A DNA stretch of 64,000 nucleotides from an uncultured Pelagibacteraceae bacterium (lineage in GTDB: Bacteria; Pseudomonadota; Alphaproteobacteria; Pelagibacterales; Pelagibacteraceae), in the NCBI GenBank assembly GCA_902573465.1, contig CACGJX010000003.1, positions 62,001-126,000 of the forward strand, given 5' to 3'. The translations under genes were made by a program, and so were the position numbers. Positions 46,650 through 51,304 of the stretch are shown one piece after another. Within the stretch, counting starts at the first letter, position 1. Each line of letters starts with the position of its first letter. The notes under the pieces are model-generated. The model worked only from the letters and a program-made list of their open reading frames with translations. It was not told where the DNA came from and made no database searches.

Positions 46650-46664
46650 TATCGCATACCAGGC

Positions 46665-46690
46665 ATGTAACAAAACAGTTACATTTTTAT
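46665..46690 (+). terminator. Weak intrinsic terminator-like hairpin after cysK
   Basis: ATGTAAC-aaaaca-GTTACAT followed by TTTTAT. Confidence 0.6.
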
Positions 46691-46717: not shown

Positions 46718-47089
46718 ATGAAAAAAATTATTATAATTTTATCTTTTTTCATCTTTACATCTGCTAATGCAGAAATAAGTGATAACGATAAATCAAAAGC
46801 ATGGGATTGCGTTGGTATTTATATGGCTAACTACTTTCTGCCATCAGGTGAAAAATTTGAGTATGGAATGAAAGAAAAATCAATTTCAACTGTGAAAGTT
46901 TTAAAAACCTACGCTCTTGAAATAGGTATTCCAGAAAAAGATTGGGATGCTGGAGTAAACAAAGCAGTTGATAAACATTACGGTTCCAAATACGACAAAG
47001 CTAAAACTGACAAATGTCATACGTTTGTTGAAGCTTTGGTTCCTAATGGAGCTGAAAGAGTAAAAAAAGTAGTTCAAACTTTATATTAG
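46718..47089 (+). CDS. Small secreted protein of unknown function
   Basis: 123 aa; signal peptide MKKIIIILSFFIFTSANA; two mature Cys. Confidence 0.65.
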   Translation: MKKIIIILSFFIFTSANAEISDNDKSKAWDCVGIYMANYFLPSGEKFEYGMKEKSISTVKVLKTYALEIGIPEKDWDAGVNKAVDKHYGSKYDKAKTDKCHTFVEALVPNGAERVKKVVQTLY

Positions 47090-47099
47090 GGAGAAATTT

Positions 47100-47384
47100 A
47101 TGGAAAAAGAAATGTTAGTAGTAGCTAAATTAAAAGAGGGAATGTTTGAAAAATTTATGGGATTTATGCAATCACCTGAAGGTTTAGCAGAAAGAGCAAA
47201 AGTTGCAGTAGTAGAAAAAACAATTGGAACAGTAACACCAGATAAAAGCACCGTTATGTTTAAGATTTTTTGTACTGACGAGGCAGCTCTATATAAATTT
47301 ATAGAGGGAACTGAAGTATCAAAACCTATTATGTCAGCAGTATTAGATAGTTACTCAGTTTATCATTTAACCAAAGCAAAATAA
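47100..47384 (+). CDS. Small uncharacterised protein
   Basis: 94 aa between RBS-spaced neighbours; possible ferredoxin-like/dimeric alpha-beta barrel pattern. Confidence 0.6.
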   Translation: MEKEMLVVAKLKEGMFEKFMGFMQSPEGLAERAKVAVVEKTIGTVTPDKSTVMFKIFCTDEAALYKFIEGTEVSKPIMSAVLDSYSVYHLTKAK

Positions 47385-47397
47385 CTGAAAGGAAAAA

Positions 47398-47685
47398 ATG
47401 AAAAACTATATGGTAACTCACACTTTCAAATCGAAAGAAATGAAAGAAAAATTTAGTGAAACAGTAGCTTCAATGAAAATGGAAGACATTGTTAAATCAA
47501 TGACAAGTGATAAAGCAGCATGTCAAATGACTTGGAACACACCAGGTGATACAATGCAAATGTTTTGTTGGTGGAAAGCTAACAGTGAAGCGGATATTAA
47601 TAATCAATTGGGTCAAATGAATGATTTCTTTGAGCCACATAAATTTACTGAGTGTACTGACCAAGTGATGGACTATAACGCTTAA
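47398..47685 (+). CDS. Small uncharacterised protein
   Basis: 95 aa; preceded by gaaagga RBS; MKNYMVTHTFKSKEMKEKFSETVASM. Confidence 0.6.
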   Translation: MKNYMVTHTFKSKEMKEKFSETVASMKMEDIVKSMTSDKAACQMTWNTPGDTMQMFCWWKANSEADINNQLGQMNDFFEPHKFTECTDQVMDYNA

Positions 47686-47696
47686 AAGAGAAATTT

Positions 47697-48011
47697 ATGA
47701 AAGCAATCTATACAAGAACCATTGGTGTTTACGATGATAAACTTGATGAAGCTATGGAAATCTCTAAAGGTTTGGCAAAAGTTAGAAAAAAACATTATCC
47801 AGATCATGAAGTTTACTTTTCATTTCAAATTGGTGGTAACCCAAGGACGGTAAGAGAAACACTTGTGGGTGAGCAGTTTACTGATAAAGCATTTGAAAAT
47901 GATACAAACATGTCAGCTGATCCTGAATTCATTGAACTTCAGAAAAAAATGAAGGGTGTTTTTAAAGAAGGTACAATTCAGGATGAAATGAGAATGGTTT
48001 TTAACGATTAG
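47697..48011 (+). CDS. Small uncharacterised protein
   Basis: 104 aa; co-directional, 11-nt gap. Confidence 0.6.
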   Translation: MKAIYTRTIGVYDDKLDEAMEISKGLAKVRKKHYPDHEVYFSFQIGGNPRTVRETLVGEQFTDKAFENDTNMSADPEFIELQKKMKGVFKEGTIQDEMRMVFND

Positions 48012-48019
48012 GAGAAAAA

Positions 48020-48436
48020 ATGTTAGAAAAATTTAATGGGATATTTTATTTAATAATTTATTTAGTTCACTTTATTGGAGTTGGTGTTTACGCATTTCAA
48101 ACTATTTTTGGCACTAAAAGCTTCATGGAAAGATTTGGTATAGATCCAAGTGGAGCAATAATGATTAGAATGGCAGGAGCATTTATGCTCGCTGTATTTT
48201 TAATGTCAATCTATGTAGGTTTTATAAGACCTGGGGGTTTGGAAAACACATGGGGATTCTTAAATTTAGTTTTTATAAATAACCTATGTATTTTTTTATG
48301 TAATTTTTATTCTATTAAAATAAATAAAACAGGTGTGAATGAAAAAACTACAAACGAGGGTGTTATTGCACCGTTTGTATTTACAATTATGAGTGCAATT
48401 TTATGCTACGGTTTAGCTGATAAAATTTACACTTAA
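48020..48436 (+). CDS. Small polytopic membrane protein
   Basis: 138 aa with about four TM segments; RBS aggagaaaa. Confidence 0.65.
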   Translation: MLEKFNGIFYLIIYLVHFIGVGVYAFQTIFGTKSFMERFGIDPSGAIMIRMAGAFMLAVFLMSIYVGFIRPGGLENTWGFLNLVFINNLCIFLCNFYSIKINKTGVNEKTTNEGVIAPFVFTIMSAILCYGLADKIYT

Positions 48437-48723
48437 TGTCTGGGTTTGCAATATTCAACATAGAGGTAAAAAAACCTGAGGAATATAAAGAGTACGTAGA
48501 AAAAGTGAAACCGATTGCTGAAAAATTTGGTGGAGAATATATTGTTAGAGGTGGTGAAACAAAAGTATTAGAAGGAACTTGGGCATATCCTAGAACAGTT
48601 GTTATTAAATTTCCAAGTTATGACAAAGCTTTAGAGTGGTATAACTCTGATGAATACAAACCAATTAAACAAATCCGTTTAGAAAACTCGATTGGTAACG
48701 GAATAATAATTAAAGGAGTATAA
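48436..48723 (+). CDS. DUF1330 family protein
   Basis: 95 aa; EVKKPEEYKEYVEKVKPIAEKFGGEYIVRGGETKVLEGTWAYPRTVVIKFPSYDKALEWYNSDEYKPIKQIR. Confidence 0.88.
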   Translation: MSGFAIFNIEVKKPEEYKEYVEKVKPIAEKFGGEYIVRGGETKVLEGTWAYPRTVVIKFPSYDKALEWYNSDEYKPIKQIRLENSIGNGIIIKGV

Positions 48724-48724
48724 A

Positions 48725-49045
48725 ATGTCGATATTAAAAAGATATACTGATGCAATAGATAAAAAAGATGAGGCAACTATGAATGAACTTTTGCATGATG
48801 ATTTTAAATTCACGATGCATAAATCTGGAAATTCTTTAGGAAAAGCTGATGTTATAAAATGGGCAATGAGTGGAGATATCAATCAAGATAAAACTAGGGT
48901 TGTATATGAAAATGATGAAGTGGGTGTACACCATTCTTTTGTTACATTTAATGACGGAAATGTTGAAGCTGTAATGGCGGTTTATAGATATAAAGACGGA
49001 AAAATTGTTAGTTTAGAAACTGGCGCTACTCCAATGTCTAAGTAA
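48725..49045 (+). CDS. NTF2/SnoaL-like family protein
   Basis: 106 aa; LKRYTDAIDKKDEATMNELLHDDFKFTMHKSG, YRYKDGKIVSLE. Confidence 0.75.
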   Translation: MSILKRYTDAIDKKDEATMNELLHDDFKFTMHKSGNSLGKADVIKWAMSGDINQDKTRVVYENDEVGVHHSFVTFNDGNVEAVMAVYRYKDGKIVSLETGATPMSK

Positions 49046-49594
49046 GTGAAAAAAATTTCATTCATTTTTATTTTTTTCTTATTTTCATCGTCTTTATTGG
49101 CTGACGATAATAAAAAAGAAATTGATAAATTATTTGTTCAATTAAAAAGTGCTTTAAACTTTGAAAATTCAAAAAAAATAGAGGATAAAATTTGGGATCT
49201 TTGGACTACTCATCCAACTAAAAATAATTTAACAAAGTTATTAGCTGATGGTTCATCTGCAATGATGGAGAATAAACTTGATGCTGCATATGATAAATTT
49301 ACTGAAGTCATTAAACTTGATCCTAATTGGGCAGAAGCTTGGAATAAAAGAGCAACGGTATTATATTTAATGGGTAAATACGAGCTATCACAAGCTGATA
49401 TTGACAAAGTGCTTTTGATGGAAAAAAGACATTTCGGTGCACTAACAGGCCAAGGTTTAGTTCAAACAGCTTTAAAAAACTACGAAAAAGCTATTGATAG
49501 TTACATTGAAGCTCATAAAGTTCATCCGTTTTTGAAGTCTCCTATGATTATGATGGAAAAGCTTCAAATCGAATTGCAGAAACAAAGTATTTAA
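49046..49594 (+). CDS. Secreted TPR-repeat protein
   Basis: 182 aa, GTG start; signal peptide ISFIFIFFLFSSSLLA; KFTEVIKLDPNWAEAWNKRATVLYLMGKYELSQADIDKVL. Confidence 0.8.
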   Translation: MKKISFIFIFFLFSSSLLADDNKKEIDKLFVQLKSALNFENSKKIEDKIWDLWTTHPTKNNLTKLLADGSSAMMENKLDAAYDKFTEVIKLDPNWAEAWNKRATVLYLMGKYELSQADIDKVLLMEKRHFGALTGQGLVQTALKNYEKAIDSYIEAHKVHPFLKSPMIMMEKLQIELQKQSI

Positions 49595-49596
49595 AA

Positions 49597-49818
49597 ATGT
49601 TTCCAAAAAAATATTCTAACCTTTTATTTATATTAGTTATGGGATTTGGGATGAGTCTTTTAATGACACTAATAATTACTTATATAAATACTGGAATGGA
49701 TAATGAGTATGTCGACCGTTTTTTTAAAGCATGGTCAGTAAGTCTTCCAATTGCAATAATTGCTGCTCTTCTTGTAGGTCCCCCGATTAAAAAATTTGTA
49801 GATAAAATTACCAAATAA
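49597..49818 (+). CDS. DUF2798-like two-TM protein
   Basis: 73 aa; LFILVMGFGMSLLMTLIITYINTGMDNEYVDRFFKAWSVSLPIAIIAALLVGPPIKKFVDKI. Confidence 0.75.
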   Translation: MFPKKYSNLLFILVMGFGMSLLMTLIITYINTGMDNEYVDRFFKAWSVSLPIAIIAALLVGPPIKKFVDKITK

Positions 49819-49833
49819 GAATATCTTTTATTT

Positions 49834-50169
49834 GTGAGTAACGTTATAGCTTTTCTAATTCTTATACTTGCTGTCATATTAGGTACTGCAGCAAATAGTT
49901 TTGCAAAAAGTGCAAATGGTTTCACATTGTTAGTTCCTAGTTTAATTACTGCAATCACAATAATTGGTTGCATGTTTACTCTTTCAATAGTGATGAAAAC
50001 TATACCTGTTGGTATTACCTACGCATCTTTTGCTGGTTTATGTATCGTGGCGACTTCGATTGTTGGAATATATAAATTCAATCAAGTACCTGATCTATTC
50101 ACAATCATTGGTTTGATATTAATTATATCAGGAGTCTTAATTGTTAATCTGCTGGGTAAAACAGGATAA
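49834..50169 (+). CDS. SMR (small multidrug resistance) family protein, first of pair
   Basis: 111 aa, GTG start; four TMs; IPVGITYASFAGLCIVATSIVGIYKFNQVPDLFTIIGLILIISGVLIVNLL aligns with SMR C-terminal half. Confidence 0.75.
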   Translation: MSNVIAFLILILAVILGTAANSFAKSANGFTLLVPSLITAITIIGCMFTLSIVMKTIPVGITYASFAGLCIVATSIVGIYKFNQVPDLFTIIGLILIISGVLIVNLLGKTG

Positions 50170-50172
50170 TTT

Positions 50173-50508
50173 ATGGCAAATTTATCTGGTTATATCTTTT
50201 TAGCTTTAGCAATACTTCTTGGAATAACTTCAAATGGTTTTTTAAAATCAACTAATGGATTTACAATAATTGGGCCAACTATTTTTTGTATCATATCTAT
50301 AGTTGCTTGTATTTTTTGTTTATCTAAAGCAATGAATATTATTCCAGTTGGTTTTACTTATGCAACATATGGAGGTTTAACGATTACTGCAGTAACACTA
50401 TTTGGTGTTTTTAAATATCAGCAAATTCCAAACTTGTATGGGATTATTGGAATAAGTTTAATAATTATTGGTGTAATTCTTTTAAATACTTTGGGTAAAA
50501 CTAGCTAG
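50173..50508 (+). CDS. SMR family protein, second of pair
   Basis: 111 aa; same length and pattern as upstream paralogue: IPVGFTYATYGGLTITAVTLFGVFKYQQIPNLYGIIGISLIIIGVILLNTLGKT. Confidence 0.75.
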   Translation: MANLSGYIFLALAILLGITSNGFLKSTNGFTIIGPTIFCIISIVACIFCLSKAMNIIPVGFTYATYGGLTITAVTLFGVFKYQQIPNLYGIIGISLIIIGVILLNTLGKTS

Positions 50509-51304
50509 AAACTGGTTTTAAAATTTTAAGCATTTTTTTATGTAAATTATTATTAGATGAGCAAATAATATTTCCAGCTTTCTTGGCATCATCATTTTTC
50601 CAAGTCGAGACAATCCCTTTTGCAGCCTCAATAATTGGTATTAAGGCATGAATATCCCAAATTTTATTTCCACATTGAATAACAACATCAAGTTTACCCT
50701 CAGCAAAATGAGAATAACTTAAAGCATCCGAGCATGGAAATTGCATTCTTTTTAAAATTTGAGGAATTTTTTTTTGTTTATTTAATGACAGACTGCCGTG
50801 AAATGCTGCTGACAATTTCATTTTAGAATAAGTTGCTTTTTGATTAACAAGTATTTTCTTTTTCTTTCCATTTTCTGAAACATACGCAGAATTAAATGAG
50901 GTATTAAAATAAAACTTTTTAAGAATTGGAAAATTTGCAAGACCTACAACTGGGTTACCTTTATAATTTAAAGATATCAAATTACTCCAAGTTGGATTTC
51001 CTATCACAAATGATCGAGTTCCATCTATGGGATCTATAACCCATGAATAATCGCTTTTAGTTTTTTTATAGCCAAATTCTTCACCTATAATTTGGTGATT
51101 TGGAAACCTTTTTTTAATCTCATTTCTAATGAATCGTTCAAAAGCCTTGTCAGCAGTTGTTACAGGGTCATAACCGCTTCTAAGTTTATTCGATACTTTA
51201 AAGGGTTTATTTAATTTAGAGTAATAAAATCTAGTTAATTTCTTAGCTAAACTTTCAATGAACTTAGAATAAAGTTTATAATCTGATGATTTTAAAATTT
51301 GCAC
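50501..51304 (-). CDS. Inositol monophosphatase family protein (possible histidinol-phosphatase)
   Basis: 267 aa; IIGEEFGYKKTKSDYSWVIDPIDGTRSFVIGNPTW; C-terminal WDIHALIPIIEAAKG. Confidence 0.88.
   Translation of the reverse strand: MQILKSSDYKLYSKFIESLAKKLTRFYYSKLNKPFKVSNKLRSGYDPVTTADKAFERFIRNEIKKRFPNHQIIGEEFGYKKTKSDYSWVIDPIDGTRSFVIGNPTWSNLISLNYKGNPVVGLANFPILKKFYFNTSFNSAYVSENGKKKKILVNQKATYSKMKLSAAFHGSLSLNKQKKIPQILKRMQFPCSDALSYSHFAEGKLDVVIQCGNKIWDIHALIPIIEAAKGIVSTWKNDDAKKAGNIICSSNNNLHKKMLKILKPVSS

Follow-up and report, generated by a model that had tools for sequence, protein, structure and literature searches.

We have studied an array of small genes in a 64,000-nucleotide stretch of DNA (the window) from an uncultured Pelagibacteraceae bacterium (contig CACGJX010000003.1, positions 62,001 to 126,000), whose genome is 88.6% complete. 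The array comprises eleven open reading frames (ORFs) of 73-182 amino acids, p1 to p11, on the plus strand at positions 46718-50508, between the cysE-cysK genes and a convergent inositol-monophosphatase-like (IMPase) gene. Within the genus its membership changes gene by gene at a fixed site, the order of the genes is conserved, and its families are found grouped together elsewhere on the chromosome and in other lineages as well. The explanation that we prefer, to which as a whole we would give somewhat less than an even chance, is that the array is a combinatorial operon of small proteins that handle small organic molecules, located at a fixed site prone to exchange. For the architecture of the array and its evolution the support is good; the chemistry we infer.

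The stretch downstream of cysK was taken from about 100 genomes of the genus, and the 75 (the window included) in which both cysK and the IMPase/TauD flank were present were kept. ORFs lying between the two flanks were clustered into families, and then laid out for each genome. The genomes are mostly incomplete single amplified genomes (SAGs), and the ORF calls were mechanical. The plus-strand part of the site takes 60 ordered contents, with 56 distinct sets, in the 75 genomes, and holds a median of 9 genes (range 3-14). The exact gene content of the window is found elsewhere only in close relatives (L058, L059, L098, L101 and L102). The defined eleven-gene unit of the original prediction, an earlier note on this DNA made from the letters alone, thus has to be given up. 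Content or order differs in half of the pairs with less than 3% cysK divergence (8 pairs), and in 65% of those at 3-6% (49 pairs). A flexible island is recognized by gene content that differs among closely related genomes although the site and its flanks stay the same, and this is what is observed here. A second set of 61 bounded loci from named SAGs, partly overlapping the first, gave 30 layouts.

The relative order of the genes was preserved in 1810 of 1911 family-pair comparisons (94.7%), and the median gap between genes on the same strand is 9 nt. The common order begins with p1, followed by a group containing p2, a small TPR protein and other secreted proteins, then p3, p4, p5, DUF1330 and NTF2; after this come TPR and DSBA-like genes, DUF2798 and two successive SMR genes. 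Mapped onto a tree of cysK, the minimum number of state changes is 15 for p2, 13 for p3, 12 for DUF1330, 11 for DUF2798, 9 each for p1 and p4, 8 for TPR, 6 for p5, 5 for NTFa and 2 for SMR.

A single exchange can be seen directly in L059. Its cysK is 98% identical to that of the window and it has the same gene order, with p2 replaced by a variant that is 47% identical. The DNA identity between the two is 93-98% as far as the p1 stop codon, falls to 49-67% within p2, and returns to 97% from the p3 start, placing the breakpoints of the swap at the gene edges. The p2 variant has changed at least 9 times on the cysK tree. Exchange by neighbor-anchored homologous recombination is made possible by the conserved gene order, and the p2 swap would be most simply explained in this way. 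No repeats were found at the gene junctions of the window's array. We also considered an integron cassette array, and rejected it on the basis of the gaps (−1 to 15 nt), the lack of a junction repeat family and the lack of an integrase gene in the window's array.

Other changes were observed at the site. In L215 the two SMR genes are separated by two further ORFs (481 amino acids on the minus strand and 259 on the plus strand) that form an unrelated block; insertions of this kind within the array are rare. At the downstream end, genomes of other clades (L066, L083, L112, L144, L163 and others) carry a minus-strand block before the IMPase-like gene, comprising CMD/AhpD-like, DUF952, glutamine-amidotransferase-like and DUF924 genes and, in some cases, a peptide ABC transporter. 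The block is possibly exchanged as a second unit; on the cysK tree CMD changes only once.

Are these families associated with one another, or only with the site? Eight SAG loci away from cysK contain p1 with varying subsets of p1b, DUF1330, DUF3764, p2, p5 and GYD, next to one of two blocks, TRAP-transporter/HisD-like/ADH or TerC/enoyl-CoA-hydratase. A second family of the order has the arrangement GYD-ABM-NTFb-(cupin)-p3-(DUF3764), with unrelated neighbors. Within the class, p2-cupin-(p4)-NTFa occurs in two genomes of a further family, and ABM-like, cupin, NTF2-like, cupin and p3 genes in a single genome of yet another, where labels lacking a family match were read from the sequence. Elsewhere in the class-wide sample p2 and p3 are absent. 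Since the grouping is repeated at other chromosomal sites, and in three or more further groups at family level, the cysK site is more than a permissive insertion spot. Synteny had been proposed as the check on whether the genes are unrelated singletons in relatives; the families recur together, although the subsets change.

Individual families differ in their range. In the order-wide sample p4 is confined to this genus, with one copy per genome. There are 332 relatives of p1 in the named genome collection, of which the best 80 are all from Pelagibacteraceae (SAR11), mostly single-cell genomes. The p5 gene is also found reversed and directly abutting cysK, or at another site. Its second conserved location, away from the array, was seen in L079-L081, L084, L089 and L092-L094, with a CysE-like acyltransferase nearby in several genomes and sometimes DUF1330. 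At the second site of the p1 arrays, a gene resembling S-adenosylmethionine-dependent methyltransferases (235-238 amino acids) forms the right boundary in L218, L246 and L249 (about 10.7-12.8 kb); the left neighbors differ. In another alphaproteobacterial family (L263 and L264) a p2-cupin-NTF2 array lies between hisE-like and thyX-like genes, and L264 has an extra gene inserted beside it. Genome G000 has a second DUF1330 paralog (G000:C5:12050-12331; L002 and L267), which is about 36% identical and lies outside any small-gene array, next to epimerase and sugar genes.

In the window itself the gaps between successive genes from p1 to p11 are 10, 13, 11, 8, −1, 1, 0, 2, 15 and 3 nt, bearing out the claim of eleven consecutive plus-strand genes of 73-182 amino acids separated by 15 nt or less. 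The convergent gene that had been noted downstream is the IMPase-like gene (50501-51304), which overlaps p11 by 8 nt. For homologs of all ten array families in relatives, the ratio of nonsynonymous to synonymous substitution rates (dN/dS) is below 1, with medians of 0.06-0.40. The array ORFs are therefore genes and not chance frames. Spacing, strand and the terminator-like hairpin upstream are consistent with an operon.

The hairpin follows cysK at 46665-46689 on the plus strand, and resembles an intrinsic terminator. The predicted fold has a stem-loop ATGTAAC-AAAACA-GTTACAT (46665-46684) followed by the T-run TTTTTA. Relatives carry changes that preserve pairing, with C-G replaced by T-A in L107 and L066, and A-T by G-C in L061. 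Folding and pair-preserving changes together support the earlier assignment of this hairpin. A simple terminator scan missed it because the stem is too A+T-rich for the filter of the scan.

Just upstream of the hairpin lies the leader element GCATACCAG (46654-46662, plus strand), which recurs in array leaders with the consensus GCATAnCwG (C or T at the seventh base). It is present in 50 of 69 array leaders, compared with 0.19 expected from mononucleotide shuffles, a comparison that is uncorrected for relatedness. The element is also found in cysK-site leaders of arrays with other first genes, in those behind a reversed p5, and upstream of p1 at the second chromosomal site. The window's genome contains seven exact copies, where the leader copy is the only one outside genes and the other six are intragenic. 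With four copies of the reversed control, this led us to reject GCATACCWG as a general SAR11 promoter element. A known riboswitch was likewise rejected, there being no Rfam match in the leader at E up to 1, and a promoter scan gave no more sites than shuffled sequences. We regard GCATAnCwG as a candidate control element specific to the operon.

What kinds of protein does the array encode? In searches with Pfam and NCBIfam profiles p1-p5 gave nothing above a family cut-off; p6, p7, p8, p9 and p10 have Pfam matches above cut-off, and p11 was assigned to the SMR superfamily by NCBIfam. The first gene, p1 (46718-47089), encodes a secreted all-helical protein with two invariant cysteines (31 and 100); in the AlphaFold model (pLDDT 87) the signal peptide is followed by five helices. 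The p2 protein (47100-47384) is small and soluble and exists as two variants about 47% identical. Its β-α-β-β-α-β pattern, read from the sequence, indicates that it is probably a dimeric α-β barrel. The small soluble protein p3 (47398-47685) has invariant cysteines at 42 and 57 and a weak match to the SCO4226-like nickel-responsive α-β barrels (PF14026; E 0.036 in the window and 0.0046 in a relative). At 14.7-17.6 bits, the match stays below the gathering score of 28.5. The p4 protein (47697-48011) is a dimeric α-β barrel like those of NIPSNAP and ABM. Its AlphaFold model (pLDDT 91) matches NIPSNAP-family structures in Foldseek with E 6e-6, TM-score 0.72-0.79 and probability 1.00, and the fold matches include YgiN, LsrG, PA0709 and the polyketide cyclase OAC. 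A sequence match to FICD (E 0.003) was taken as chance, the model being an α-β barrel. From its sequence, p5 (48020-48436) is a membrane protein with four transmembrane helices, and has no Pfam or PDB match.

The families of the next four genes had been named correctly in the original prediction. The p6 protein (48436-48723) is a DUF1330 dimeric α-β barrel (PF07045, E 3e-32, 111 bits). It is followed by the SnoaL_2/NTF2-like p7 (48725-49045; PF12680, E 3e-9), the only SnoaL_2 match in the window's genome; by p8 (49046-49594), a secreted TPR protein with a GTG start codon (PF00515, E 3e-13); and by p9 (49597-49818), a DUF2798 protein with two transmembrane helices (PF11391, E 3.5e-20, 72 bits). 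DUF1330, GYD, DUF3764 and ABM belong to one fold class with α-β barrels of the p4 type. Profile-profile comparison of p2, p3 and p4 with DUF1330, GYD and DUF3764 gave weak links (probability 20-28), and the stronger links among secreted families are due to shared signal peptides. The soluble members of the arrays are dimeric α-β-barrel, NTF2/SnoaL and cupin proteins, and small-ligand folds dominate the cargo. The expectation of ferredoxin-like or dimeric α-β-barrel and NTF2 folds was thus correct, by model and PDB match for p4 and by Pfam for p6 and p7.

The last two genes, p10 (49834-50169, GTG start; PF00893, E 5e-14, 53 bits against a cut-off of 23.7) and p11 (50173-50508; NCBIfam SMR models down to E 1e-20), encode SMR-like proteins; p10 has four transmembrane helices. 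Both are above cut-off in a search of the window's genome, and they are the only SMR genes found there. The profiles thus uphold the assignment to the SMR superfamily made earlier, but the catalytic glutamate is missing. All 108 SMR-like proteins at the site, p10 and p11 included, have glycine in place of Glu14 (EmrE numbering), and there is no acidic residue in the first or third transmembrane helix. Position 18 is asparagine in place of threonine in 107 of the 108, among them p10, W63 is tyrosine or phenylalanine, and the second glycine of the GXG fulcrum in the third helix is threonine or cysteine (alanine in one). K22, P55, G97 and the switch tyrosine Y60 (108/108) are invariant.

These proteins resemble the known SMR transporters EmrE/Qac, Gdx, MdtIJ and ArnE/F (PMC9574504) in having about 110 amino acids and four transmembrane helices and in occurring often as tandem pairs; they differ in the glycine at the central glutamate, the asparagine one helical turn later, and the altered W63 and third-helix fulcrum. 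Central glutamates are essential in the Gdx, Qac and polyamine SMRs, whereas the lipid SMRs, the only ones that move noncationic substrates, often have asparagine at that position (PMC9574504). Since they lack the central glutamate, p10 and p11 are best described as SMR superfamily members, and annotation as proton-coupled multidrug exporters should be avoided. They are closest to the ArnE/F flippases in the missing glutamate, though not by profile score. That one feature suggests that they may transport lipids or neutral molecules.

How might such an array function? We propose that homologous recombination anchored in conserved neighboring genes swaps modules, and that the conserved order keeps swapping possible. 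The cytoplasmic α-β-barrel, NTF2 and cupin proteins would bind or convert small organic molecules without cofactors. Through the glutamate-less SMR-like pair, with the proteins of two and four transmembrane helices, uncharged or lipophilic compounds would pass the inner membrane with no need of proton antiport; p1 and the TPR proteins, being secreted, would act in the periplasm, and the GCATAnCwG leader would control the operon. Different gene subsets might then suit different compounds, such as phytoplankton phenolics, polyketides or oxidized lipids. The combination of small-ligand folds, glutamate-less membrane proteins and periplasmic helical and TPR proteins points to a role in taking up, releasing or converting small organic compounds that are uncharged or lipophilic. 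A more specific version, a mix-and-match operon with a single promoter, a private GCATAnCwG leader, some 30 interchangeable ligand-handling families, neighbor-anchored swaps of one module and an uncoupled SMR-type channel for neutral organics, we consider unlikely in its entirety.

A number of observations weigh against a combinatorial operon for small organic molecules. No single array gene is invariant, which would be unusual for a pathway. GCATAnCwG is missing or degenerate in 19 of the 69 leaders; moreover it was chosen after inspection of the data, and the leader counts ignore relatedness. The cysK tree is that of a single gene, obtained by a quick search. The p1 model has no PDB fold match (best E 0.84), and NCBIfam places p10 and p11 nearer to Qac than to ArnE, whose model gives E values of 0.0085 and 0.097, far below cut-off. 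The 60 contents in 75 genomes and the repeated turnover of genes also speak for the main rival, a plain flexible genomic island in which unrelated small genes occupy a harmless insertion site and the compact same-strand layout reflects genome streamlining only. Some clades carry other cargo at the site (LldD, epimerase, peptide ABC transporter and photolyase-like genes), and hypervariable regions and 'gene indels' are established for SAR11 (PMC2217521). Such an island would not be expected to show the conservation of order, the dominance of small-ligand folds or the purifying selection described above, and it is weakened above all by the repeated co-clustering of these genes at unrelated chromosomal positions and outside this bacterial family, both within the order and in the wider class. 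We regard it as possible, if rather doubtful.

The fold of p4, with its matches to YgiN, LsrG, PA0709 and OAC, could alternatively indicate a stress or detoxification operon directed against reactive electrophiles such as quinones and aldehydes, with YgiN/LsrG-like barrels, DsbA-like/HCCA-isomerase-like, glyoxalase-like and AhpD/CMD proteins. DSBA-like, CMD and glyoxalase-like genes do occur within the arrays of some clades, but these redox genes are missing from most arrays, that of the window has neither a redox enzyme nor a regulator, and α-β-barrel folds have many functions. This seems improbable to us. More improbable still is a sulfur- or cysteine-linked accessory operon of cysE-cysK. 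The array adjoins those genes in nearly all genomes of the genus, and there are invariant cysteines in secreted p1 and soluble p3; yet the terminator-like hairpin separates cysK from the array, and the neighbors at other sites and in other families are not sulfur genes. Sulfur limitation of Ca. P. ubique did not induce cysK or cysE (PMC5069961). Lastly, variable gene content at a fixed site, as seen here, is typical of defense islands. To an anti-phage or phage-derived island we nevertheless give hardly any credence. There was no PADLOC match at E up to 0.01 for ten array proteins (p1-p10) and no PHROGs match; a search of IMG/VR gave no viral relative for either p2 or p3, and the window's array has neither an integrase nor a nuclease, nor repeats at its junctions. 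The earlier statement that no known system is recognizable thus holds for defense and phage systems.

How does the array compare with variable regions already known? SAR11 hypervariable regions (HVR1-HVR4 in Wilhelm et al. 2007, PMC2217521; HVR3 also in PMC5069961) and island exchange by homologous recombination (PMC4033161) have been described. The HVRs are likewise fixed in position, variable in content among close relatives, and rich in small unknown genes. The genes given for HVR1-3 in the passages compared (pilin and ammonium transporter, lipopolysaccharide genes, and bhmT-osmC-ordL) differ from those of the array; the HVR4 gene list lay outside the comparison. Term searches of PMC2217521 gave no hit for cysK or cysteine synthase. 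Unlike the HVRs, the array varies gene by gene inside one same-strand, order-conserved operon, and not as a block. With the replacement-type flexible genomic islands (PMC4033161) it shares one site in all strains, similar functions provided by different genes, and homologous recombination in the flanks; it differs in that the unit exchanged is a single gene of about 300 bp, and in that similar gene sets recur at other sites. Sets of aromatic-polyketide tailoring enzymes (SnoaL cyclase, SnoaB/ABM monooxygenase and cupin cyclases) also combine cofactor-free NTF2/SnoaL, α-β-barrel and cupin folds, but neither a polyketide synthase nor an acyl carrier protein nor any further biosynthetic gene occurs in the arrays examined. 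In the literature outside subscription papers we found no paper joining SAR11 and DUF1330, no description of the cysK-linked array, and no modular array with single-gene exchange, conserved order and membership recurring at multiple sites.

SAR11 bacteria are among the most abundant in the sea, and their genomes are famed as minimal. Despite this, the membership of the array varies even where cysK is nearly identical, with single genes swapped cleanly. The array provides a functional context for DUF1330, DUF2798, DUF3764, GYD, a new secreted helical family and a glutamate-less group of SMR proteins. If the genes act together, they would offer a direct way of finding out which dissolved organic compounds can be processed by different SAR11 cells, and how diversity is maintained in streamlined genomes without mobile elements. 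If the mix-and-match form of the operon should prove to be true, it would define a new class of metabolic gene clusters for streamlined genomes, in which each cell has its own set of proteins.

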